From Candidatus Nomurabacteria bacterium (GTDB lineage: Bacteria; Patescibacteriota; Minisyncoccia; Phycocordibacterales; UBA9973), in NCBI GenBank assembly GCA_023267515.1, contig JAHFNF010000015.1:1-15008 (forward strand): a DNA stretch of 15,008 bases. Direction: 5' to 3'. The notes beneath the pieces were generated by a model. That model saw only the letters and a list, made by a program, of their open reading frames with translations, did not search any database and was not told the DNA's origin. The first letter of the stretch is position 1, and every line of letters starts with the position of its first letter. Made by a program: the position numbers and the translations under genes. Of this stretch, positions 240 through 14,838 are shown piece by piece.

Positions 240-3200
240 TTATCTCAGATTAGGATTTTTGCTCCAAGGAATCAGGGTTGCAGGAACAGGAAGTTGCAAA
301 TCGGGACACATTACATTCTTTGCTTCGTTCAAGCTGGTAAGATAGAAAATACCAGTTCCCTTTGTCAGACCCCAAGGTGCTAAAATTTTCTGATTATGAG
401 GTGGTGTCTCTTGGAATTTCTTTACAAAGTTTTCGGTGATCGGACCAAATTTACCGTCAACCGCTATATTTACTTTCAAGTAATCCATCAAGAATTTCTG
501 CAAAGCTTCTACTTTTGTAATATCATTCTTTACATATCCTTTGCGAAGATAAGCGAAGTCCACATCACAGATAGTGCTCGCGCCCAACACTTCTCCTTGT
601 GTCTTCGGAGGTAGAGAACCGCCAACGGAAGTATTATGTACACATTCTCCTCGGCCATTTAAATGCCTGCCAGTTGGCACCTCAGTTTGAAGACCGTCTA
701 TGTTTGGACAAATATCATTTTCAATTACGGGGTACGTACAAGATTCATCATCTTGGGTAGCACTGGAATTATAGTTTGTAGCTCTTGGATCCGTGCAACC
801 GAGAAGGAAGAAAGTATTGGTAATGGTGCAAGATTTAGTGCCACCGAGTGAAAGAGTGACAACACCATTTGAATCACAGTCTCCACTTATAGAACCAATA
901 TAATTCTCAGGACCAGTTTCGTAAATAGTATATTCCCCCGCAGAAAGATTGCTGTAAGATGTACCAATTGCTGAACCAGGTTGTGGACTTCCGTCTACAT
1001 CCTGTAGCTGACCGGTAGTAACGTGAATTTGGAAGTCAGATGGCAATTTGGTTCCGCCAACCACATTTTTTATTACGGTCAATCCTGGCGCAAGATCACT
1101 GTTTGTAATCGTGCAAGATTTTACATCACCGATTGCAAGAGTGATTTTCCCTTCTGCATCACAATCACCTGAAATTACACCGACATATCCTGTTGGATTT
1201 GTTTCACTCACAGTGTAAACTCCGGCAGAGTAAAGGTTTTCTTCTCCTGAGGTCACCTGATCACCATTAACAAATAACGGAACATCTGATACTTCAAGCA
1301 AACCGCCGTGAGTGTTGTGAATCACTTTTGTGACTGTAAGTTTTGGCGCAACATCTTCGTTTGTAATAGTACAAGAAATATTTTGACCTTCTGAGAGCGT
1401 CACTGTGCCTCCGATTTCAGATGGACATCCATCATCCCCTCCTATTGAAACAAAAGAATATCCAGTAAGACTAAGTTCCATAATTTCTATCGGAACATTA
1501 GCATTGACAGTAAGGGTCTGACCTGAATTTACAGCTGTTCCTCCAATTGATAGACCAAAATCGTCCGGCCCTTTTGTCCCACCGTAATTATTATTTACAA
1601 CCTTGGTTAAAGTAACTGTCGGTGCAATGTCATTATTGTTTACAGAACAATTTATTGAATCACCAACTTCTAAGGTGATAGTGTCTCCATCCTGAGTTCC
1701 TCCATCGCAAGACCACTCTGATCCTTGATAGCCAGTTGCTCCATCTTCTGAAAGAGTGTACGTTCCAGCATCAAGCGCTTGGGTTGAATCCCAAGATACT
1801 GGTGATCCGTTAATATAAGCTTGGAAATTGTCTTGAGTAGCAAGGCCACCATTATCATTGGTAACTCCTTTATGAAGTGTAAGACCAGGGGCAGTATCGT
1901 AATTCGTAAGAGTGCAGTTCTTTACATCGCCTAGTGCTAAGGAAACATTGCCATCTACATTACAATCCCCTCCGAAAACTCCATAATATCCTGATTGATT
2001 GTCTTCAGTTACATTATAAGTTCCGACTGAGTAGGTATTTTGTTCACCTGAGGTCACTGACGTCCCATCTACATAAAGAGGGAAATCAGAAACAACCATA
2101 GTGCCACCGTGAGTATTTTCTACAGTCTTGGTGACAGTCAGCTTCGGCGCGATATCATCGTTAGTGATAGTGCAAGTCTTGGATTCTCCGTTTGCAATAT
2201 CCCCTGAGCAATCCTCTCCGAGGGTCTTTTGGTAACCAGTTGAAGAAACTTCGTCTGCATTGTACGAGCCAGCATCAAGAGTAACAGTGACACCAGTTTC
2301 AGAACCATTGAAAGAAGTAGAGGAAACATTTCCGCCGATAACATTCATTATAAAATCAATCGCTTCTTTAAGTCCGCCAAAATTATTATTAACGTGTTTT
2401 ATTACTGTAAGATTGGCTGGTTTATCATTGTTCGTAATTTCACAAGTTTTGTTTTCACCGACAGAAAGAGTAAATGAACCATCAGCCGCACAATTTCCGC
2501 TCCAACCAGATGCAGTATAAGCAGCAGGATTGGAAACTTCACTAGCAGTGTAAGAACCGGCGTTAAAACCAGTTGCGTCACCGCTTGAAACACTGGTGCC
2601 GTTCACAGAAAGAGGAAAATCAGAAACGCTTGCTGAACCGCCATTGTCATTCACGACGTGCTTTACGAGAGTAATGGTTGGTTGAATATCGTTGTTAGTT
2701 ATAGTGCAAGATTTTACATCACCGACTGCAAGAGTGATAGAACCGTTCGCTGAACAATCTCCGGAAATAGCACTGGTATAACCGGCACTAGAAGTTTCAG
2801 AAATAGTATAAGAACCAACGTTGAAACCATTTTGCACACCAGAAGTAACTCCAGTTGCATTCACAAATAGAGGGAAATCGGAAATTACTTTTGTCCCGCC
2901 ATTGTCGTTAGTAACAATCTTGGTGACAGTTAACTTTGGTTGAATGTCATTATTAGTTATTGTACAAGTCTTGTTTTTACCAAGTGCAAGTGTGATTGTT
3001 CCGTCAGGATTGCAATCCCCTCCCCATGTTCCAGCAGAGTAACCTGTAAGATTTGTCTCAGATGCAGTGTGTGATCCGACAGATACTATCTGAGCGGAAT
3101 CCCAAGTTACATTACTTCCATCTATTTTCCCTTGAAAGCTTGCTGTGGTAGCGATACCACCGTTATCATTGGTAACTGTCTTAATAAGAGTTAGGTGAGG

Positions 3201-3704
3201 AATAAAACTGGCGCAATCCGGGTCATCTAGATCTATTAGCGTGTCCCCATCATTGTCTATACCATCTGAACAAAGGATAAGTGTATTTTCAGCTGGGGGA
3301 ATAATAACATCACCAGTTGTAGCTGATGTACCAGATGTGGCTGCTCCTCCGTGATGCTCTCTTACCGTATAACGATAAATTGAACTCGGGGTTAACCCAG
3401 TATCAATGTGACTACCAGTAGGATAAATTGGGAGAAAGTTGCTTATCTGTTCAAAAATTGGTGTACCAGAAGTGTCTGGGGTACATCCTGTCCCTGAGCA
3501 ACGCCAAATATATAAATCATGTTGAGCGAGAGATGAACTTGTAGTACTTGTGCTAGTCCAAGTTAAAGTTACAGAGCTACTAGATAAAGCTGTTGCTGTA
3601 AAACCAATTGTTGATCCGACAGTATGCGCTGATGCACTATAAGCTGGCGCGAAAAGTGCTATTGCTAATACGACCGGAAGAAAACGTGATAATATTTTTT
3701 TCAT
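240..3704 (-). CDS. giant secreted repeat protein with 9 CnaB/SpaA-like domains and a peptidoglycan-binding-like C-terminus
   Basis: This is a 1154-residue secreted protein. Residues 1-26 are a signal peptide (MKKILSRF, hydrophobic core, cleavage after ASA). Residues 27-135 look like a fibronectin-III-type domain. At about 146-165 there is an Asp-rich CSDGIDNDGDTLID calcium-binding-like motif. Residues 169-966 hold nine domains of 85-95 residues (LTxxKxVxNDNGG ... SExxxxGY ... GDC ... CTITNND), a prealbumin/CnaB-like pattern. Each keeps Lys, Glu, Asn and two Cys. The tail has a GCTDPRATNYN motif (969 on), CPNIDGLQ (about 999) and, at about 1052-1098, a PG_binding_1-like helix pattern ending DGKFGPITENFVKKFQ. 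There is no LPXTG anchor. The TAA is at 240-242. The start is the only ATG giving a signal peptide; it has no Shine-Dalgarno but has a good promoter about 80 nt upstream. I infer a wall-attached fibre or adhesin; the ligand is unknown. Confidence 0.9.
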   Translation of the reverse strand: MKKILSRFLPVVLAIALFAPAYSASAHTVGSTIGFTATALSSSSVTLTWTSTSTTSSSLAQHDLYIWRCSGTGCTPDTSGTPIFEQISNFLPIYPTGSHIDTGLTPSSIYRYTVREHHGGAATSGTSATTGDVIIPPAENTLILCSDGIDNDGDTLIDLDDPDCASFIPHLTLIKTVTNDNGGIATTASFQGKIDGSNVTWDSAQIVSVGSHTASETNLTGYSAGTWGGDCNPDGTITLALGKNKTCTITNNDIQPKLTVTKIVTNDNGGTKVISDFPLFVNATGVTSGVQNGFNVGSYTISETSSAGYTSAISGDCSANGSITLAVGDVKSCTITNNDIQPTITLVKHVVNDNGGSASVSDFPLSVNGTSVSSGDATGFNAGSYTASEVSNPAAYTASGWSGNCAADGSFTLSVGENKTCEITNNDKPANLTVIKHVNNNFGGLKEAIDFIMNVIGGNVSSTSFNGSETGVTVTLDAGSYNADEVSSTGYQKTLGEDCSGDIANGESKTCTITNDDIAPKLTVTKTVENTHGGTMVVSDFPLYVDGTSVTSGEQNTYSVGTYNVTEDNQSGYYGVFGGDCNVDGNVSLALGDVKNCTLTNYDTAPGLTLHKGVTNDNGGLATQDNFQAYINGSPVSWDSTQALDAGTYTLSEDGATGYQGSEWSCDGGTQDGDTITLEVGDSINCSVNNNDIAPTVTLTKVVNNNYGGTKGPDDFGLSIGGTAVNSGQTLTVNANVPIEIMELSLTGYSFVSIGGDDGCPSEIGGTVTLSEGQNISCTITNEDVAPKLTVTKVIHNTHGGLLEVSDVPLFVNGDQVTSGEENLYSAGVYTVSETNPTGYVGVISGDCDAEGKITLAIGDVKSCTITNSDLAPGLTVIKNVVGGTKLPSDFQIHVTTGQLQDVDGSPQPGSAIGTSYSNLSAGEYTIYETGPENYIGSISGDCDSNGVVTLSLGGTKSCTITNTFFLLGCTDPRATNYNSSATQDDESCTYPVIENDICPNIDGLQTEVPTGRHLNGRGECVHNTSVGGSLPPKTQGEVLGASTICDVDFAYLRKGYVKNDITKVEALQKFLMDYLKVNIAVDGKFGPITENFVKKFQETPPHNQKILAPWGLTKGTGIFYLTSLNEAKNVMCPDLQLPVPATLIPWSKNPNLR
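807..3200 (-). repeat. array of 9 tandem prealbumin/CnaB-like domain repeats
   Basis: The array codes for nine head-to-tail repeats of about 255-285 bp inside the 1154-aa protein, with no linkers between domains. In protein order I see several sublineages. Repeats 2, 3, 5 and 8 have SDxPLxV. Repeat 4 has the ECSG-like CSGDIANGESKTC form. Repeat 1 has FQGKIDGSNVTW. Repeat 7 has GLSIGGTAVNSG and an extra CPSE turn. Repeat 6 joins the front of the repeat-1 type to the back of another type (WSCDGGTQ). Repeat 9 has an insertion. Sequence drift at DNA level is high, so the array is old rather than a recent slippage product. Confidence 0.9.
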
Positions 3705-3790
3705 AATTTATAAAAACTAACGTTAATAAAGACGACTTTTAATAAAATTAATAAAAATGGAACACTTTTTAAACACTTTGATTTTTTAGG

Positions 3791-3819
3791 AGTTTAGCAC
3801 AGCGCTAGAAACTTGTCAA
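3791..3819 (-). promoter_or_regulatory. sigma70-like promoter of the 1154-aa surface gene
   Basis: Read on the minus strand, a perfect TTGACA (3814-3819) is followed by a 17-bp spacer and TGC-TAAACT (-10 at 3791-3796, with the TG of an extended -10). The predicted start of transcription is near 3784, leaving a leader of about 80 nt before the ATG at 3704. The leader is AT-rich and has no clear ribosome-binding site. Confidence 0.75.
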
Positions 3820-3873
3820 GTACGTTGGGGATATCCGGTGGATGAGTGTGAATAACCAAAAACACCGAGTAAA

Positions 3874-3882
3874 TGATATAGT
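3874..3882 (+). promoter_or_regulatory. extended -10 promoter of the DedA-family gene
   Basis: TGA-TATAGT matches the extended -10 form TGnTATAAT at 8 of the 9 positions counting n as free. No good -35 is seen. Transcription would begin near 3889, 7 nt before the ATG at 3896. That places the earlier in-frame ATG (3842) outside the message. Confidence 0.5.
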
Positions 3883-3895
3883 ATATGGCAAGATT

Positions 3896-4495
3896 ATGTC
3901 AGCAACAGGAGACTTAATAAAACAACTTGGAAATTTATCATATTTTGGCATATTGGGTGTATCAATTATCGCCAATGTAATAGTTCCCTTTCCAGAAGAA
4001 ATCGTGCTTTTAGGACTCGGGTACTTGGCCGGCACCGGCCGAGTGCATCTTTTGATTTTAATGCCGATAGTCATCAGCGGGCTACTTTTAAGTGATGTGG
4101 TAATGTTTACCCTCTCAAAAAAAGGCAACCGTTTGGTAAAAAAATTTTACGAGAAAATATTCTCCAAAAAATTGGAGCCGAGGCGCGAATGGCTAGAAAC
4201 CCATATTGATAAGGTTATTTTTTTCTCTCGCTTTTTAGTCCAACTTCGTTTTTTAGGACCATTTTTAGCAGGCCAAATGCATATCACTTTAAAACGCTTT
4301 CTTAAATACGAAATAGCCGCACTTCTGATTTATGTGCCTCTTTACCTCTGGGTAGGATTTTATTTCAGAAATAGGATTGAATTCATCGCCAGTGGTATAG
4401 GCGCAGTTAAAAATATCATCTTGATTGCTGTTGGCATTGGCATACTAATATCGCTTTCAAAATTAATCCGACGAAAAGCCCTCAATATAAAATGA
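3896..4495 (+). CDS. DedA-family (SNARE-associated / VTT domain) membrane protein
   Basis: This is an integral membrane protein of 199 residues with the DedA/VTT pattern. It has a first hydrophobic re-entrant region with PFPEEIVLLGLGYLAG (about residues 30-45), a basic cytoplasmic stretch, and the family signature FFSRFLVQLRFLGPFLAGQM (about 110-129). Two more membrane segments and a basic tail follow. DedA proteins are linked to membrane homeostasis and lipid (undecaprenyl- or phospholipid-) flipping; the substrate here cannot be read from the sequence. An upstream in-frame ATG at 3842 would add 18 residues, but a TGA-TATAGT box lies inside that extension, so I prefer 3896. The gene sits alone between two minus-strand giant surface genes and ends inside a strong terminator hairpin. 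Confidence 0.85.
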   Translation: MSATGDLIKQLGNLSYFGILGVSIIANVIVPFPEEIVLLGLGYLAGTGRVHLLILMPIVISGLLLSDVVMFTLSKKGNRLVKKFYEKIFSKKLEPRREWLETHIDKVIFFSRFLVQLRFLGPFLAGQMHITLKRFLKYEIAALLIYVPLYLWVGFYFRNRIEFIASGIGAVKNIILIAVGIGILISLSKLIRRKALNIK

Positions 4496-4525
4496 AAAAC
4501 CCCCGTGCGGGGGTTTTTCATTTTA
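4488..4525. terminator. bidirectional rho-independent terminator
   Basis: A perfect 17-bp stem (4488-4504 with 4509-4525) surrounds the loop GTGC, with a CCCCC/GGGGG core and A/T flanks. It overlaps the stop codon of the DedA-family gene (TGA 4493-4495). It also follows the minus-strand giant gene ending at 4537, so both convergent genes can use it. Confidence 0.92.
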
Positions 4526-4536
4526 ACTATTCAAGT

Positions 4537-7500
4537 TTATGGAAGTATATTCCAGAAAGCTAGGCTGCTGTTTGCCAAAGATTGTGAAGTCTTAGGGGTT
4601 GCAGAACCTTGTCCGGAAATCGCGATCGCGTCATTGCTATTGTTGTAGGCGTCAAGCTGTGATGCAAATGATTGGATCAAAGCTGTATTCGTCCCTGCCC
4701 AAGCAGCGGCAGCATTAGCAAGCATCGTCGCTGTTCCCGCACTGCAAGTAAATGCCTTGCAGTTTAGCTCCGCACCGAGCCATTGCTGGAGCATTTGTAT
4801 ACGAGCTTTATCAAGTGCAGTACGTTGTGCCCCAGTAGTGGTCTTTGGAATACTTGCGTAGAATCCAGCAAATAATTTGGAAGTGCTATCAATAACATGG
4901 GTTCCAATTGTCAGTGGATTAATCCCTGCAAAAACTCCGGATGTATAAGTAGTGTGTGTCTGCCAGAAACCAATCGTCCGAGTCGCGTGCGGAAGATCGT
5001 TGTTTGTAATGGTGCAAGTCTTTGTCTCCCCATTTGCAATTGTTCCTGAGCAATCTGCGCTCATTGTCTTGACGTATCCGGCGCTTGAAACTTCGTCCGC
5101 AGTGTAAGCACCAGCATTCAAGGTGACGTTTACGCCTGATTCATTTCCGGCAAAATTATTTGTTGAGAGGTTTGTGCCAGTCAAATGCATTGTAAAGTCA
5201 CCAGCGACAGCCACATCTCCATCATCATTAATCACGTGCTTGATAACGATAAGGTGAGCTGGTTGATCATCATTAGTGATAGTGCAAGTTTTTGTCTGTC
5301 CTAATGCAATCGTGCCAGCACAATCTGTGGAAGCAGATGCTTGCGTGTAGCCGGTAAGGGAACTTTCAGTGACAGTATAAGCACCAGGGGTAACAATCTT
5401 AGTTGTACCAGGATTTTCCGCCCCGGCGAATGAGTTGCCACCAGTCGCTGTCACTCCCCCGATATTCATCGTGAATGCTCCCGCAACTGCTGTACCACCG
5501 TTGTCGTTGATTACGTGCTTGATCACTATCAAGTGTGCAGGAATATCATCATTTGTTATTGTGCAAGCTTTCACATCAGCAAGCCCTAGGGTGACAGCGC
5601 CATTTGGAGCGCAGTCGCCGGAAATCACAGAGCTGTAACCGGAATCAGTAGTTTCAGAAACAGTATATGAGCCTGCGTTGAAGTTATTTTGGACACCAGA
5701 GACTACTCCGGTTGCATTTACGAACAGTGGGAAGTCTGAAACTACTTTTGTTCCGCCGTTGTCGTTAATGACAATCTTGGTGACGGTCAATTTTGGAGAA
5801 ATATCGTCGTTTGTTATTTCACAAGTTTTAACGTCTCCAATCCCGAGTGTTACGGATCCATTAGCAGAGCAGTCTCCGCTCCAAGATGAAGCGGCATAAC
5901 CTGTCTGTGAAGTTTCAGAAGCAGTGTATGATCCTGCGTCAAATCCATTTTGCACTCCCGATACTACTCCTGTTGCGTTAACGAACAGTGGGAAGTCTGA
6001 AACAACTTTTGTTCCACCGTTGTCATTCACAACGTGCTTGATCAAAGTAAGTTTTGGCTGAATATCATCGTTTGTAATCGTACAAGTTTTGCTTTGACCA
6101 AGCGCAACTGTCGTATCGCCGTTTTGGTCACAATCGCCACTGAATCCTTCAAAGGCATACCCAGAAAATAATGTTTCGCCAGAAGTATAAGTGCCAGGAT
6201 TCACTGGTACTGGTGTTCCAGAAGTAGTAGCATTTCCTTCAAGGGTCAGAGCGAAGTCGTCTGGTTGTGCAGTTCCCCCATTATTATTAATGACAACCTT
6301 TACAACAGTAATGTACGCCTGTTGGTCATCATTAGTTATAGTACAAGTTGCTTCCTGTCCAAGACCTAATGTGATATTTGCTCCATTTTGCGTTCCGCCT
6401 ACACAGCTCCAAGCGGATGGAGTGTAGCCAGACATTGTCGTCTCACTTAGAGCGAATGTGTCAGCGAGTAACCCTGCCCCAGAATCAACTGGGCTCGTGC
6501 CAGAGATGTCATTTGTTCCGGTGCCATTTGCAGTCAGAGTGAAATCTGCAACAGTCGCAGATCCGCCATTGTCATTTATTACAACTTTTCTAAGGTGAAG
6601 AATTGGGGCAATATCATCGTTTGTGATGGTACAAGTAACAGTCTCACCTTCATCAAGCGTCACTGTGCCGCCCAAGATTGCCGGACATTTTGCATCGCCA
6701 GTAAGCGATACGAAATTATATCCTGCTAGCCCTGCTTCATTGAGAGCGATAGCCTGATTGGAATTTACAGAAGAATTAACTCCGGAGTTTACAGCATTTC
6801 CTCCGACAGTAAGACCAAAATCATTTATACCGGCAGTGCCACCGTTATTATTGATTACTACTTTGTTTAAGATGATATGAGCTGGTTGATCATTGTTCGT
6901 AATCGTACAGGCTTTTACATCTCCTAGGTTAAGGGTAACAGATCCATTGGTAGCGCAGTCCCCTGTCCAAGACCCAGCGGTGTAACCTGTAAGATTTGTT
7001 TCAGAAGCGGTGTAAGAACCAGCGTTAAAATTATTTTGTACTCCGCTCGTTACGCCAGTAGCATTAACGAAAAGTGGGAAGTCAGAAACTACTGCGTTAC
7101 CACCGTTATCATTTACCACAATTTTTGTAAGCGTAAGCTTTGGTTGAATGTCATCATTGGTGATTGTACAAGTCTTTGTCTCGCCGAGCGCGATCGTACC
7201 AGAACAATCTGCAGAAAGAGTTTTGTCATAACCAGTGTGTGCTCCTTCATCTACTGTGTAGGCTCCGACAGTAGTCAGGGTATTATTTACCCCAGGAGAT
7301 TCTACTCCAGCAGCTACTGGAGTCCCTGTTGTGACACCAGAAATTGTCGTGGTGAAAGTGTTGGCTAGTGCTGTGCCACCGTTATCATTTATTACATGTT
7401 TAATAACGATGAGATGCGCTGGTTGATCATTGTTAGTGATAGTACAAGTAGCATTCTGAGCAAGAGAAAGTGTAATTGTTCCGTTGGCTGCACAATCTCC

Positions 7501-9834
7501 TCCCCAATTTCCGGCAGTGTAGCCCGAAAGGTTGGTTTCAGATGCAGTGTGCGCTCCGGCTGTTGTAGTTTGAGCAACCGTCCATGAAACGTTTCCACTA
7601 TCAATCATTCCTTGGAAGTCTGTGGTGACGGCTGTTCCGCCATTGTCATTGATGACTGTCTTTACGAGAGTAAGAGTAGGAGCAATATCATCGTTTGTGA
7701 TTGTGCAAGTTTTTGTTTCGCCCTGAGCAATCGTTCCTGAGCAATCTGCTGATGCAGATGTCTGTGTATAACCAGCCATTGCTCCCTCGGTCACAGTGTA
7801 AGCACCAAGAGATGAAAGAGTTTTATCAGTGCCAGGGTTTTCAGCCCCCGCAAATGAATTTCCGCCAACAGCTGTCACTCCACCTATCGTCATTGTGAAG
7901 TTTGAAGCAGTAGCTGTACCGCCATTGTCATTAATGACATGTTTGATAACTATGAGATGGGCTGGATTATCATTATTATTTATCGTGCACGTAGCGCTCT
8001 GACCAGCAGCGAGTGTGATGTTGCTGCCATTCTGCGTACCGCCTGTGCAGCTCCATGAACCAGCTGTATACCCTGATGGTCCGCTGGTTTCTGATAGTGC
8101 GTAAGTGCCAGCGTTCACTGCTGCATTCGTAACTGCGCCACTTCCAGTCACACCAGAGATTGGTGTAGGACCAGAACCGTTAAGTGTCCAAGCGGTTGCA
8201 ACAGCTGTGCCTCCGTTATCGTTCGTAACTGTTTTAACTAAAGTTAAATGCGCTTGCTGAAGAGTGTTTGTGTAAATACAATCTACAACTCCACCACCAG
8301 CAGAACCAACGGTAATAGATACAGAACGAGTACCTACGTTTGGTGTAGCGCTAGTCCCTGTCCCTGTTGCCGTACAAGTCAAAGCTGTGTTTGCCCATCC
8401 AGAAAGGGTGCTTTCAGTAATTGAATAATTTCCCGGAGTAACGTTTTGCGTGTTAGATGTACCACCCGTTAAATTAAATCCACTGAAACCAGTTCCAGTT
8501 GTTGTATAAGTAAAGCTTGTTGTTGTGTCAGTTGAAGGGTCAGTAACTTTGTGAATCGTAATTGTATTTGGAATAACGATTGCACTCGCGGCCATTTGGT
8601 TGTCGCGATTACCGGTTGATCCACCATCAAGCTCAACTACTTTTACGTGATAAGGTGATCCATTAATATTCACGGCGGAAGTACCAGCTCCCCAGTCTGC
8701 CTGGCTTGAAACGTGCGCTCCCCAAGTTATAAAGACGGGGCATTTTCCTCCGCTTGCATCAGCACAAGTACTTGTGTTTACGGTGAAGTTAACAGCTATA
8801 TCAGTCAAACTATCGGCTCCATAAGAACCGTTTACAAGAGTAGGTGTTCCAAAAGAAGTGATCGTTCCATTTTTAATTTTAAAATGCTGGTTTCCGTCTG
8901 GTGTGCCAAGAGTGTTTAGTGGATCGTGAGGAATTGCTGGTGAGAGGTTTGAGGAAAGTGAAGTACATGATGGCATTGCAGTTGTTACTGGACCACTACA
9001 TAGATCTGCGTCAGTAACCCAAGTTTCTGAAGCTGTATCGTTAGTTAGAAAATCGTACGCGTGTTTACCCCCTTTGGTTGTTTGATATTCAATAACAACA
9101 GTGTGGGCTCCGTTTGATAAACCACTAAGTACTAGTCTCTGTACAGTTGAATCTTCTTCGGTATAAGTTGAGTTGCTTCCATTTAAGTCACCGTTTGTCC
9201 AATCACAAACTCCTGGATTGCCTGTATATCCATCCCCATCATCATTTGCGCATTGTGAATAGACATCAACACCAGCACCAGCCGCATCTGTAAATGTTGT
9301 GCTAGCAATTTGTTCTCCATCAAGGGTGCTCGCAGTAACAGTGTAAAGTGGACGGTACATATTATCTAATAGATAAGCGTAAGAGAAACTTCCAGCATTA
9401 TCAGAATTTACTGTGAAAGATGTGTCTGTGTAATGATTACCTACTTCTGAATTACCAAAAATTCTCAAAACAAAGTTTTGGAGTGATGGAAAAAAGTTTC
9501 CAAAAATATTAGCGGTATCTCCAGGCTCGTAGTCAGGCAAATCAGTTGAAAGTGTTGGGACAGGAGTAGGTGGAACATCTGCTGATGGTGTTACGTCTTG
9601 AGGGGCATCTGTGGGTGGAGTGGTATCAGCAGGTGGAGTTACGTCGCTTGGCGCATCCACTGGTGGAGTAACATCAGTCGGTGGAGTTGAATCTGCTGGC
9701 GGCGTTACATCATCGCCCGGTAAAGTATCTGTTGCAAGAGGGATAGGATCCGCTTCTTGCGCGCGAGAAATATTAAAAAGACCGAAGCTTATAATAAAAA
9801 CAAACACTAGCAAAATACCTATATATTTTTTCAT
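4537..9834 (-). CDS. giant secreted repeat protein with 12 CnaB/SpaA-like domains and a GFWxTH C-terminal domain
   Basis: This is a 1765-residue secreted protein. The start at 9834 (MKKYIGILL) opens a signal peptide ending near SRAQEA. A longer in-frame ATG at 9918 adds 28 residues but lies within the -10 box, so it is rejected. In order I see a Pro/Thr/Asp-rich stalk, a DLPDYEPGDTANIFG Ig-like domain, and a Cys-containing ectodomain (CANDDGDGYTGNPG, then NGSNSTYTEEDSTVQRL). A divergent repeat (ITIHKVTD...CIYTNT) and twelve tandem domains of about 90 residues (525-1613) follow, each with Lys, Glu, Asn and two Cys conserved. The final 150 residues begin RTIGFWQTH. They resemble GFWxxH domains of secreted proteins and share their end with the partial gene at 1-180. 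There is no LPXTG or C-terminal membrane anchor. I infer a long surface fibre; partner unknown. Confidence 0.9.
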   Translation of the reverse strand: MKKYIGILLVFVFIISFGLFNISRAQEADPIPLATDTLPGDDVTPPADSTPPTDVTPPVDAPSDVTPPADTTPPTDAPQDVTPSADVPPTPVPTLSTDLPDYEPGDTANIFGNFFPSLQNFVLRIFGNSEVGNHYTDTSFTVNSDNAGSFSYAYLLDNMYRPLYTVTASTLDGEQIASTTFTDAAGAGVDVYSQCANDDGDGYTGNPGVCDWTNGDLNGSNSTYTEEDSTVQRLVLSGLSNGAHTVVIEYQTTKGGKHAYDFLTNDTASETWVTDADLCSGPVTTAMPSCTSLSSNLSPAIPHDPLNTLGTPDGNQHFKIKNGTITSFGTPTLVNGSYGADSLTDIAVNFTVNTSTCADASGGKCPVFITWGAHVSSQADWGAGTSAVNINGSPYHVKVVELDGGSTGNRDNQMAASAIVIPNTITIHKVTDPSTDTTTSFTYTTTGTGFSGFNLTGGTSNTQNVTPGNYSITESTLSGWANTALTCTATGTGTSATPNVGTRSVSITVGSAGGGVVDCIYTNTLQQAHLTLVKTVTNDNGGTAVATAWTLNGSGPTPISGVTGSGAVTNAAVNAGTYALSETSGPSGYTAGSWSCTGGTQNGSNITLAAGQSATCTINNNDNPAHLIVIKHVINDNGGTATASNFTMTIGGVTAVGGNSFAGAENPGTDKTLSSLGAYTVTEGAMAGYTQTSASADCSGTIAQGETKTCTITNDDIAPTLTLVKTVINDNGGTAVTTDFQGMIDSGNVSWTVAQTTTAGAHTASETNLSGYTAGNWGGDCAANGTITLSLAQNATCTITNNDQPAHLIVIKHVINDNGGTALANTFTTTISGVTTGTPVAAGVESPGVNNTLTTVGAYTVDEGAHTGYDKTLSADCSGTIALGETKTCTITNDDIQPKLTLTKIVVNDNGGNAVVSDFPLFVNATGVTSGVQNNFNAGSYTASETNLTGYTAGSWTGDCATNGSVTLNLGDVKACTITNNDQPAHIILNKVVINNNGGTAGINDFGLTVGGNAVNSGVNSSVNSNQAIALNEAGLAGYNFVSLTGDAKCPAILGGTVTLDEGETVTCTITNDDIAPILHLRKVVINDNGGSATVADFTLTANGTGTNDISGTSPVDSGAGLLADTFALSETTMSGYTPSAWSCVGGTQNGANITLGLGQEATCTITNDDQQAYITVVKVVINNNGGTAQPDDFALTLEGNATTSGTPVPVNPGTYTSGETLFSGYAFEGFSGDCDQNGDTTVALGQSKTCTITNDDIQPKLTLIKHVVNDNGGTKVVSDFPLFVNATGVVSGVQNGFDAGSYTASETSQTGYAASSWSGDCSANGSVTLGIGDVKTCEITNDDISPKLTVTKIVINDNGGTKVVSDFPLFVNATGVVSGVQNNFNAGSYTVSETTDSGYSSVISGDCAPNGAVTLGLADVKACTITNDDIPAHLIVIKHVINDNGGTAVAGAFTMNIGGVTATGGNSFAGAENPGTTKIVTPGAYTVTESSLTGYTQASASTDCAGTIALGQTKTCTITNDDQPAHLIVIKHVINDDGDVAVAGDFTMHLTGTNLSTNNFAGNESGVNVTLNAGAYTADEVSSAGYVKTMSADCSGTIANGETKTCTITNNDLPHATRTIGFWQTHTTYTSGVFAGINPLTIGTHVIDSTSKLFAGFYASIPKTTTGAQRTALDKARIQMLQQWLGAELNCKAFTCSAGTATMLANAAAAWAGTNTALIQSFASQLDAYNNSNDAIAISGQGSATPKTSQSLANSSLAFWNILP
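4996..8262 (-). repeat. array of 12 tandem prealbumin/CnaB-like domain repeats
   Basis: Twelve repeats average about 272 bp, with one more divergent copy just before them. Sublineages recur. PAHLIVIKHVIND copies with CSGTIA are numbers 2, 4, 11 and 12 (number 11 has CAGTIA). SDFPLFVNATGV copies are 5, 9 and 10. WSCxGGTQNG copies are 1 and 7. Number 3 has FQGMIDSGNVSW, number 6 has GLTVGGNAVNSG, and number 8 is on its own. Neighbours 9 and 10 are the closest pair. The same subtypes occur in the other giant gene, so the arrays share ancestry or exchange units. Confidence 0.9.
9556..9714 (-). repeat. Pro/Thr/Asp-rich stalk repeat (TPPxD units)
   Basis: This is a low-complexity coding stretch just after the signal peptide of the 1765-aa protein. 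It repeats VTPPAD / TPPTD / DAPSDVTPP-like units. The DNA shows a degenerate GGTGGAGTTACATC repeat on the + strand. It probably forms an extended spacer between the membrane and the first folded domain. Its tandem nature makes copy-number change between strains likely. Confidence 0.8.
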
Positions 9835-9852
9835 AATATTTTTGCGATTAAG

Positions 9853-9869
9853 CCCGCGCCTAAGGCGGG
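9853..9869 (-). other. GC-rich hairpin in the 5' leader of the 1765-aa gene
   Basis: CCCGC (9853-9857) pairs with GCGGG (9865-9869) around a 7-base loop that can itself form CGCC/GGCG. It is an isolated GC-rich patch in an otherwise A/T-rich leader, 18-34 bases upstream of the ATG at 9834, with no U-run after it on either strand. It is therefore unlikely to be a terminator. It could stabilise the message or affect start access. Confidence 0.5.
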
Positions 9870-9916
9870 GCAAGTTAATAATAAATAATAATAAAGAGCT
9901 AAAAACCAACATTGGC

Positions 9917-9945
9917 ATTTTGGTCTAAATTGATAAAGAAGTCAA
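9917..9945 (-). promoter_or_regulatory. sigma70-like promoter of the 1765-aa surface gene
   Basis: On the minus strand, TTGACT (9940-9945) is followed by a 17-bp spacer and CAAAAT (9917-9922). The predicted transcription start is near 9910, giving a leader of about 76 nt to the ATG at 9834. The upstream ATG at 9918 overlaps the -10 box and cannot be on this transcript. Confidence 0.65.
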
Positions 9946-11585: not shown

Positions 11586-11864
11586 CTAACTTTGGGTAAA
11601 TGGTTCTCCTTTTGCCCAAGCTTTCAGCACTTCATAAGAGTCTTCTCCACAAATAAATTTTTTAGTCTCAGTATTATAAAAGAATGGCACCCCTCCGCAC
11701 ATATCTTTATCTAATTCTTCAAGTTTTTTGGCATTCTCATCATTGTGCCAGACCTCATACGCATCCACTTTTACTTTCTCCTCAGTTTGGAGGCGCTCTA
11801 CAAGCTCGTGCATTACCACGCAGTGTGGGCATTCAGTACCATAAAATTCAAGCAAATTGCTCAT
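11586..11864 (-). CDS. glutaredoxin/thioredoxin-like small redox protein (CPHC)
   Basis: This 92-residue single-domain protein has the opening LLEFYGTECPHC, a first beta strand followed by a CxxC redox site (Cys12, Cys15). The matching cis-proline loop GGVPFFYN has Pro60, followed by a final strand and helix. The length fits a glutaredoxin-like fold. The CPHC active site is also seen in DsbA, but the helical insertion of DsbA is absent. There is no signal peptide, so it should act in the cytoplasm, reducing or sensing disulfides. The gene starts 2 bp after the rpsT stop and 7 bp before the ABC ATPase, so it is likely co-translated. Extra cysteines at 56 and 72 are notable for such a small protein. 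Confidence 0.85.
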   Translation of the reverse strand: MSNLLEFYGTECPHCVVMHELVERLQTEEKVKVDAYEVWHNDENAKKLEELDKDMCGGVPFFYNTETKKFICGEDSYEVLKAWAKGEPFTQS

Positions 11865-12750: not shown

Positions 12751-14784
12751 TTACGGAACTACATTTAATAAAGCATTTTGAACTGTTTGAAAGCTCGGGA
12801 AATCTACATTGTATGTAGTGATAGTAATAGGATAAGTGCCCACTTGAATACTGGGTAATAAGTCAATGTATGCATAACTTAAATCGGCAGCGAGATCATA
12901 TGGTTCCAGATACACGCCATATTCAGGGGGCTGAGATGAAACAATATTTGATGGAACTTGTATTATTATATTGAAAGCTGAAGGTCCACATAGAACAGGA
13001 TCACTGTTAAAAATTTTTAGTTCAATAGGATAACTATAATTATTTGAACTTAAGCTATATGTGTAGGGTGAAAAATTTGTAACAGTTGGGGCAACATGAG
13101 CACATGGCGGAAGACTGGGGTTAACTGTTACATTAAATGTAATAGCGGAAGGTGTGACATTTAGTATCGGTCCAATTTGTATTCCACGAGCAAGATCAGA
13201 GAAAGCGTTTGGCTGAACTAAAGCAGCATCTACAATATCATCGTACCAAAAACTTGAGCTTGCAGTACTATCAATAAGACGAGTTATTTTAGGTGCCCAT
13301 GTGTAAGGCTGATAAACTCTGTTAATTAAAAGTCCATTTTGATTACCTGTAAGTGGAGCCACATTGAGAGTGCTATCAAAATTAATTGCCCTTCTATTCT
13401 CCACCGAATAGCTTATTGATTGTGCTGGTAAAGCAGGATTACTGATGCGCGCGTATTTTTTGTTACCGCCAACTGCTTCAAGAGGATTAATAGTATATGT
13501 ACCGGTAGAAGTGATATTAAGAACTTCTGATGGTTTTATCCAATTAAGAATACTCTTATAAACTCCATTAAACTCTAGTGCATAACCAACACTAGTCCCC
13601 ATAGTGTCAAAGTTATTACCATATTCAATATGGGTACAGTCTGGTCCTAAGGGGACAGAGTCACAATCAATGCCATTTGCATGCCAAAGCCCTAAAGCGT
13701 GACCTATCTCGTGGGAAAGCAAGTAATCAAAATCTGTCCAAGGAAATGGTTTTATAAAAGGAGGATAATCTAGTTGCCAAAGTGTAGAACTAATATTTAC
13801 CCAGGACTCAGAAAAATTGTACTGTACATTATTTACTGTTTCAATATAAGGACCTACACTTGACCAACCATTACTACCTCCACAGTTAAGTACAAAAAGA
13901 ATATGATTATAACTCGCAAGGTTGACGTTGTTTGTATTAATATAATTTAAAACTTCTGGTGTATAAAAACCTATATTCCAACAAGTTTCCTCTGGCACTT
14001 GAATCCAGCCAAATGTATCTCCAATAAAATGTTTTCTATTATATGAAGATTGTTTTATGAAATCATTGAATTGCCCGTGAAATATTGTCTGATCTCCCAC
14101 AGTAGCTGTAAAAGGCGTAGTCGCACCTACGGGAGTGACGAGAAACACCGCCATTTTATAAACTTCGCTACCCTGCCCTAATTTTTGAGATCCATTCTCA
14201 GGATTAGTTTTTGATATCACCCGTGCTTGACCGAAAACCTCTTGGTCAACTTGCAAACCAGTAACTTCAACATTTACGTTCGGAGAAAAAGAATTCTGAG
14301 AAAAAGGATAAAAGCGTTGTTTTGAACTAGAAGAAACTATATAGTATTGAAAAACAGATTTTTCAGGATGATCAAAGTCATCATAATGCATTATTTCAAT
14401 TTTCCCACTTAAAGTAACATCTTGTTCTAAGTCTCTATAACCATTTTTTGACAATTCGTTTAACAAACCACTCGGAAGTTTAAAAGTATTTATAGCTATC
14501 GGGTTTAATCTGATTTCTGTCAATAATGCTGTTTTTCTTCTTGAAAGTAAATCTTGTATCGCTGGATTTTGGGGAGTAACTTCCTTACTAGTAATTTCAA
14601 AGATTTGTTTATTTAAATCTTGAACAGTACTTTTATCTGTTGTTGTTTCTCCAATTTTTGAACTTACTGCTTGCCCCAGCTGCCCTCCACTTTTCACGTT
14701 TGGGAATAAAAAATAACCAAGTACCACAACAACCAAAGCAAAAATAATAGTCGGAACGAGTGCAAACCCTTTGTTGTTTTTCAT
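12751..14784 (-). CDS. membrane-anchored M11 (gametolysin)-like zinc metalloprotease
   Basis: This is a 677-residue protein. The N-terminal MKNNKGFALVPTIIFALVVVVLGYF is a membrane segment with a Lys-Gly-Phe start. The region to about 250 resembles a pro-domain. The catalytic domain has VTPVGATTPF...FGWIQVP and the metzincin zinc site HEIGHALGLWH (358-368; three His, catalytic Glu359). EYGNNFDTMGT carries the Met-turn Met395 in the arrangement typical of family M11. A C-terminal beta-rich domain (from about 560; PPCAHVAPTV onward) follows. Earlier in-frame ATGs at 14838 and 14790 lie upstream of the predicted transcription start, so 14784 is chosen. All zinc ligands are present, so it should be active outside the cell, cutting surface or host proteins; the target is unknown. 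It converges on ruvA and diverges from mutM. Confidence 0.88.
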   Translation of the reverse strand: MKNNKGFALVPTIIFALVVVVLGYFLFPNVKSGGQLGQAVSSKIGETTTDKSTVQDLNKQIFEITSKEVTPQNPAIQDLLSRRKTALLTEIRLNPIAINTFKLPSGLLNELSKNGYRDLEQDVTLSGKIEIMHYDDFDHPEKSVFQYYIVSSSSKQRFYPFSQNSFSPNVNVEVTGLQVDQEVFGQARVISKTNPENGSQKLGQGSEVYKMAVFLVTPVGATTPFTATVGDQTIFHGQFNDFIKQSSYNRKHFIGDTFGWIQVPEETCWNIGFYTPEVLNYINTNNVNLASYNHILFVLNCGGSNGWSSVGPYIETVNNVQYNFSESWVNISSTLWQLDYPPFIKPFPWTDFDYLLSHEIGHALGLWHANGIDCDSVPLGPDCTHIEYGNNFDTMGTSVGYALEFNGVYKSILNWIKPSEVLNITSTGTYTINPLEAVGGNKKYARISNPALPAQSISYSVENRRAINFDSTLNVAPLTGNQNGLLINRVYQPYTWAPKITRLIDSTASSSFWYDDIVDAALVQPNAFSDLARGIQIGPILNVTPSAITFNVTVNPSLPPCAHVAPTVTNFSPYTYSLSSNNYSYPIELKIFNSDPVLCGPSAFNIIIQVPSNIVSSQPPEYGVYLEPYDLAADLSYAYIDLLPSIQVGTYPITITTYNVDFPSFQTVQNALLNVVP

Positions 14785-14792
14785 ACACATTA

Positions 14793-14822
14793 AGTATACC
14801 TCTACGCTTCTAAATAGTACAA
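14793..14822 (-). promoter_or_regulatory. promoter of the M11-like protease gene
   Basis: On the minus strand, TTGTAC (14817-14822) is followed by an 18-bp spacer and TATACT (14793-14798). Transcription would start near 14786, 2-3 nt before the ATG at 14784, so the message is almost leaderless. The upstream end comes within 2 bp of the divergent mutM promoter box. Confidence 0.5.
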
Positions 14823-14823
14823 G

Positions 14824-14832
14824 TGATATAAT
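14824..14832 (+). promoter_or_regulatory. extended -10 promoter of mutM, predicted leaderless
   Basis: TGA-TATAAT is a perfect extended -10, followed by CCCCAT and then the ATG at 14839. The 6-bp gap is the same as at ruvA and rpsT and predicts transcription from the A of ATG. No matching -35 is seen at 16-18 bp. Confidence 0.75.
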
Positions 14833-14838
14833 CCCCAT

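Follow-up and report, generated by a model that had tools for sequence, protein, structure and literature searches.

Does each repeat of the two giant proteins encoded on a contig of Candidatus Nomurabacteria bacterium (assembly GCA_023267515.1, JAHFNF010000015.1) carry two internal cross-links, an isopeptide bond and a disulfide? The window analysed is one entire contig (C76) of 15,008 bases from a 644-kb genome that is 92.6% complete. Two long genes on its minus strand, A (240–3704, 1154 residues) and B (4537–9918, 1793 residues), lie on either side of a gene that we read as DedA-like; all other window features given below are on the same strand. An earlier note on this DNA had proposed that a Lys, a Glu, an Asn and two Cys in every repeat mark a doubly cross-linked fibre. 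Taken together, residue conservation, joint losses among relatives, residue couplings and a CnaB-like structure model make the predicted isopeptide bond plus disulfide very likely in every repeat of A and B.

Repeats were delimited by cutting behind the conserved last strand and were then aligned. This gave 22 repeats, 9 in A (810–3203) and 13 in B (4996–8562), as counted earlier (9 + 12 + 1 divergent); the range given with that count, 807–8262, contains the repeats except that its end omits B0 (8260–8562), although B0 had been counted. From the N-terminus, the repeats of A are A1 (2946–3203), A2 (2688–2945), A3 (2424–2687), A4 (2154–2423), A5 (1896–2153), A6 (1629–1895), A7 (1353–1628), A8 (1095–1352) and A9 (810–1094). 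Those of B are B0, which was placed by Pfam and alignment, B1 (7969–8259), B2 (7687–7968), B3 (7426–7686), B4 (7150–7425), B5 (6889–7149), B6 (6613–6888), B7 (6325–6612), B8 (6064–6324), B9 (5803–6063), B10 (5545–5802), B11 (5266–5544) and B12 (4996–5265). With a Pfam cut-off of 25, SpaA_2 (PF19403) matches A at 218.6 bits in 9 stretches and B at 472.4 bits in 13. The divergent first repeat of B, B0, corresponds to Pfam SpaA_4 and has the same triad and two Cys.

Only four columns of this alignment are invariant in 22/22 repeats: K9, E50, C81 (the second Cys) and N85, in B9 numbering. Each repeat therefore has the CnaB-type arrangement of a Lys in the first strand, a Glu, and an Asn in the last strand, and the Lys, Glu and Asn reported earlier for all 22 domains make up three of the four invariant columns. 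The two Cys per domain are likewise confirmed, the first being found in all 22 repeats but in two alternative positions: 19 repeats have it in the GDC-type column, and A6, B1 and B7 at the WSC position. The exceptions noted at the aromatic that follows the Glu also recur as described, with GW in B0, AY in A3 and NY in A9.

It is the wider set of relatives, and not the count of 22/22, that carries the argument for more than chance. A search profile was built from the window repeats with the Lys, Glu, first Cys, second Cys and Asn columns and all other Cys replaced by X, so that matches were not selected for those residues, and was run against the best 120 of 2268 proteins together with open frames from loci L003–L110. 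Of 2217 domain matches, 138 were dropped because they came from the locus's own protein (P0006), had more than 20 gaps, or had a gap in the Lys, Glu, second Cys or Asn column, a step that could conceal some losses. Filtering the remaining 2079 domains at 70% identity left 962, which derive from 204 proteins or open frames, and the first Cys was scored anywhere within profile columns 57–75. Record titles among the relatives point to several bacterial phyla as well as archaea, with Daviesbacteria, Woesebacteria and Nomurabacteria among the nearest.

All five residues are kept in 920/962 non-redundant domains (2032/2079 before filtering). The most frequent departure is the absence of Lys, Glu and Asn together with retention of both Cys (17/962). 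Partial losses of the triad comprise Lys alone in 9 domains, Asn alone in 6, Lys and Glu in 6, and Glu and Asn in 2; in five of the nine cases of Lys alone a Lys lies one position off, and these are probably alignment slips. Odds ratios for joint presence are 1186 for Lys-Glu, 491 for Glu-Asn and 131 for Lys-Asn, while control pairs of Lys with Y56, G16 and G55 show no association (p = 1, 0.47 and 0.16). The 17 triple losses are spread over 9 proteins or frames; 2000 reshufflings of states inside proteins gave 2.8 on average and never more than 7. One protein, P0015, contributes 5 of them; without it the count is 12/943, and without six loss-rich proteins it is 5/879. The Cys behave as a pair: both are present in 960 domains, neither in 2, and a single one in none, and the two domains that lack both keep the triad. 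Total Cys per domain is two in 949, four in 10, three in 1 and zero in 2. These patterns support a reading in which the triad and the Cys pair each evolve as a unit, independently of the other and, judged from these alignments, with the Cys pair the more strictly kept. Cys-less, triad-keeping SpaA_2-like domains are found at loci L092 and L095, and the L092 record is titled Desulfosporosinus, a genus of anaerobes.

Mean-field direct-coupling analysis of the 2079 domains (effective number 1435, 3321 pairs) placed the triad at the top of the list, with K9-E50 at rank 1 (z 15.8), E50-N85 at rank 2 (z 15.1) and K9-N85 at rank 3 (z 10.1). C65-C81 is uncoupled in the same analysis (rank 1558 of 3321), and the first Cys shifts column among subtypes. 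Lys, Glu and Asn are in phase with the hydrophobic positions of their own strands, which, like the couplings, would fit a triad brought together in the hydrophobic core. An AlphaFold model of B9 and B10, computed jointly, has a predicted local distance difference test (pLDDT) score of 98.3, and its strands 4–12, 44–50 and 78–87 contain K9, E50 and N85, respectively. The model resembles CnaB pilin domains, and superposition on these brings the Lys and Asn onto residues of known bonds in most of the checkable rows. The search made here by sequence found no solved relative of the SpaA_2 repeats.

A and B would thus be secreted, fibrillar-adhesin-like stalks of SpaA_2 domains joined head-to-tail. 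After export, each domain would fold into a CnaB-like beta-sandwich in which a buried first-strand Lys meets the last-strand Asn, and an intramolecular Lys-Asn isopeptide bond would form, with the Glu assisting the expulsion of ammonia. Separately, the two Cys would form a disulfide tying the last strand to the preceding stretch, and neither bond would depend on the other. Oxidation could be provided by DsbA/DsbB-like proteins: the genome encodes a Thioredoxin_4 protein of DsbA-like type, which has a CPFC motif and a hydrophobic stretch at its N-terminus, and a DsbB that adjoins a gene for a CPHC thioredoxin-like protein, which makes disulfide formation outside the membrane plausible. VKOR was not found in the genome. 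At its tip, B would probably expose the N-terminal cap, and its C-terminal helical domain would hold it; A would probably be held via a peptidoglycan-binding domain. We infer both bonds, a stiff fibre, its orientation and anchoring, and adhesion by A and B; that the two are fibrillar adhesins we infer from their architecture. As an explanation of the whole, doubly cross-linked SpaA_2 stalks of this kind, with Dsb oxidation and end anchoring included, are in our judgement probable.

Several observations weigh against this explanation. The coupling signal must stem mostly from the same joint losses and so is not independent of the loss count. The window repeats resemble one another by descent, being 27–78% identical to B9, which makes the 22/22 conservation weaker than it appears; on this ground the residues might be shared merely because the repeats are recent copies, with no cross-link under selection. 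We regard that as scarcely credible, since the residues persist in 920 of 962 domains of less than 70% mutual identity, drawn from 204 proteins or frames, among them records with titles of several bacterial phyla and of archaea, and their losses are correlated, beyond the shuffled maximum. More serious is a fold stabilised by the disulfide only, in which salt bridges and hydrogen bonds join Lys, Glu and Asn in a buried, non-covalent network. Such a network would give joint loss too, the Cys are the most conserved residues (960/962), and the 17 domains without Lys, Glu and Asn are still recognisable. Yet the same residue types stand at the ends that match known Lys-Asn bonds, and Costa et al. 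(2025, PMC12617251), in the part of the paper considered here, predict the SpaA_2 bond from structure templates. We consider the non-covalent network unlikely.

That A and B might instead be pilin subunits polymerised covalently by sortase is suggested by the fold itself, because sortase pilins typically contain CnaB-like domains and several of these pilins are among the structural matches of the repeat model. Sortase (PF04203) was not found in the genome, at its 92.6% completeness, and the last 60 residues of A and B contain neither an LPxTG-like motif nor a hydrophobic tail, so that we hold this very improbable. The doubly cross-linked stalk remains our preferred explanation.

Protein A comprises a hydrophobic, signal-like N-terminus, the 9 SpaA_2 repeats, a GCTDP motif and, near the C-terminus, a PG_binding_1 domain (PF01471; residues 1064–1099, 408–515; 25.7 bits with a cut-off of 23), which is a candidate peptidoglycan anchor. 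The region downstream of the repeats (240–806) holds this domain and the motif in the form GCTDPxAxNYN; ahead of the repeats, at 3207–3284, there is a match to an acidic double-disulfide repeat (36.6 bits, below the cut-off of 41).

Protein B has a hydrophobic, signal-like N-terminus, a Pro-rich stretch, the N-terminal cap, the 13 repeats and a C-terminal domain, and gave no PG_binding_1-type match in Pfam. The cap (residues 136–455 as searched, 8554–9513, overlapping the start of B0) and the C-terminal domain (residues 1642–1793, 4540–4995, predicted helical) are conserved in relatives, and neither has a Pfam match. Among the best 120 of 2268 proteins, including our own, the cap occurs in 32, the C-terminal domain in 38 and both in 22, and proteins with both have 9 to 16 SpaA_2-like domains each. 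An LPxTG-like motif is present in the last 60 residues of 17 of these 120, of which 1 has the C-terminal domain and 5 the cap. A separate search with the C-terminal domain, which was limited to proteins between 0.55 and 1.75 times as long as B, returned 62 proteins including our own. In 62/62 there is one copy of the domain, which stops 0 to 3 residues short of the C-terminus, and T1646, R1647, G1650, F1651, W1652 and both Cys are invariant; its final aligned column is Pro in 61/62. The cap is also present in 47 of the 62 and a SpaA_2-like domain is absent in 5. Matches occur in 2/379 genomes of the phylum sample, our own and one other. The structure model of the domain is helical (pLDDT 93.0) and gave no clear structural relative.

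The C-terminal domain goes with the protein end and not with a type of stalk, and it seldom accompanies LPxTG, which suggests a role in sorting or anchoring. We propose it as a candidate sortase-free anchor or sorting domain, and the cap as a candidate distal binding tip. More tentatively, B may represent a class of sortase-independent, doubly cross-linked fibres. Such a fibre would have a conserved cap, a stalk of variable length in which each unit bears an isopeptide bond and a disulfide, and, for anchoring or sorting in place of LPxTG, a novel helical domain at the C-terminus, marked by TRTxGFWQTH, two invariant Cys and a final Pro; this is a possibility on which we would not yet rely.

In the phylum sample, SpaA_2 matches were found in 51/379 genomes, 45 of them above the cut-off. 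Two further genomes in the sample belong to the same genus; one has a single match below the cut-off and the other none, so the genus does not carry A and B as a constant feature. A third SpaA_2 gene of our genome, on contig C44 (locus L124, 2010–3974), is cut by the contig end and encodes a single SpaA_2 domain flanked by repeats that we read as propeller-like. Elsewhere in the window, 11586–11864 encodes a small CPHC-motif protein that lacks a signal-like start and is, by our reading, thioredoxin- or glutaredoxin-like, and 12751–14838 a protein with a hydrophobic N-terminus and a HEIGHALGLWH motif, whose matches to metallopeptidases M10/M12 are weak and below the cut-off.

The likenesses below draw on parts of the papers cited. 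The repeats of A and B belong to the same Pfam family, and have the same triad, as the SpaA_2 domains of Costa et al. (PMC12617251), who count SpaA_2 among the families with a predicted isopeptide bond, with Lys, Glu and Asn as its triad, describe disulfides as prevalent in SpaA_2 and SpaA_4, and report a substantial fraction of SpaA_2 predictions as low-confidence, likely from lack of templates. Their method applies templates to AlphaFold Database models, which end at 1280 residues, so that a protein of the length of B lies outside the survey. Joint residue loss, tested here, does not feature in the portions of that survey drawn on, and the word Patescibacteria is absent from its text. Judged from listings and the beginnings of abstracts, the open literature returned nothing related on isopeptide bonds with Patescibacteria or the candidate phyla radiation.

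Experimentally, a Mobiluncus mulieris adhesin (PMC10619420), like A and B a giant surface protein of tandem domains, has an isopeptide bond and a disulfide in one domain by mass spectrometry. It differs in that the disulfide joins strands 2 and 5 and is only partly formed in crystals, and in its alternating ester-bond domains and predicted thioester domain. FimP of Actinomyces oris (PMC3485203) has a C-domain of CnaB fold with one isopeptide bond and one disulfide, also shown by experiment, but is a three-domain pilin with LPXTG in which the Cys link a sheet to a hairpin (C385-C449). Spy0128 (FctA) of Streptococcus pyogenes (PMC7900414) shares two in-line CnaB domains with a first-strand Lys and a last-strand Asn (K36-N168, K179-N303); it is polymerised by sortase, and the part of that paper used here makes no mention of a Cys pair per domain.

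The reading of CnaB-type cross-links in the earlier note is partly supported, by the triad and Cys pair, by their evolution as separate units and by the CnaB-like model, whereas the bonds themselves and the rigid, protease-resistant fibre drawn from them are predicted; calling the cross-links unusual was an overstatement, given the SpaA_2 prediction and the FimP and Mobiluncus experiments. The double cross-link arrangement is not new, having been predicted already for the SpaA_2 family. To these systems our analysis adds the joint losses, which are template-independent evidence that SpaA_2 domains use the Lys-Glu-Asn triad; natural domains that have lost one cross-link set and kept the other, in which the two are separable and directly comparable; and a candidate anchor, the unnamed terminal domain of B, which may hold such fibres on sortase-free cells.
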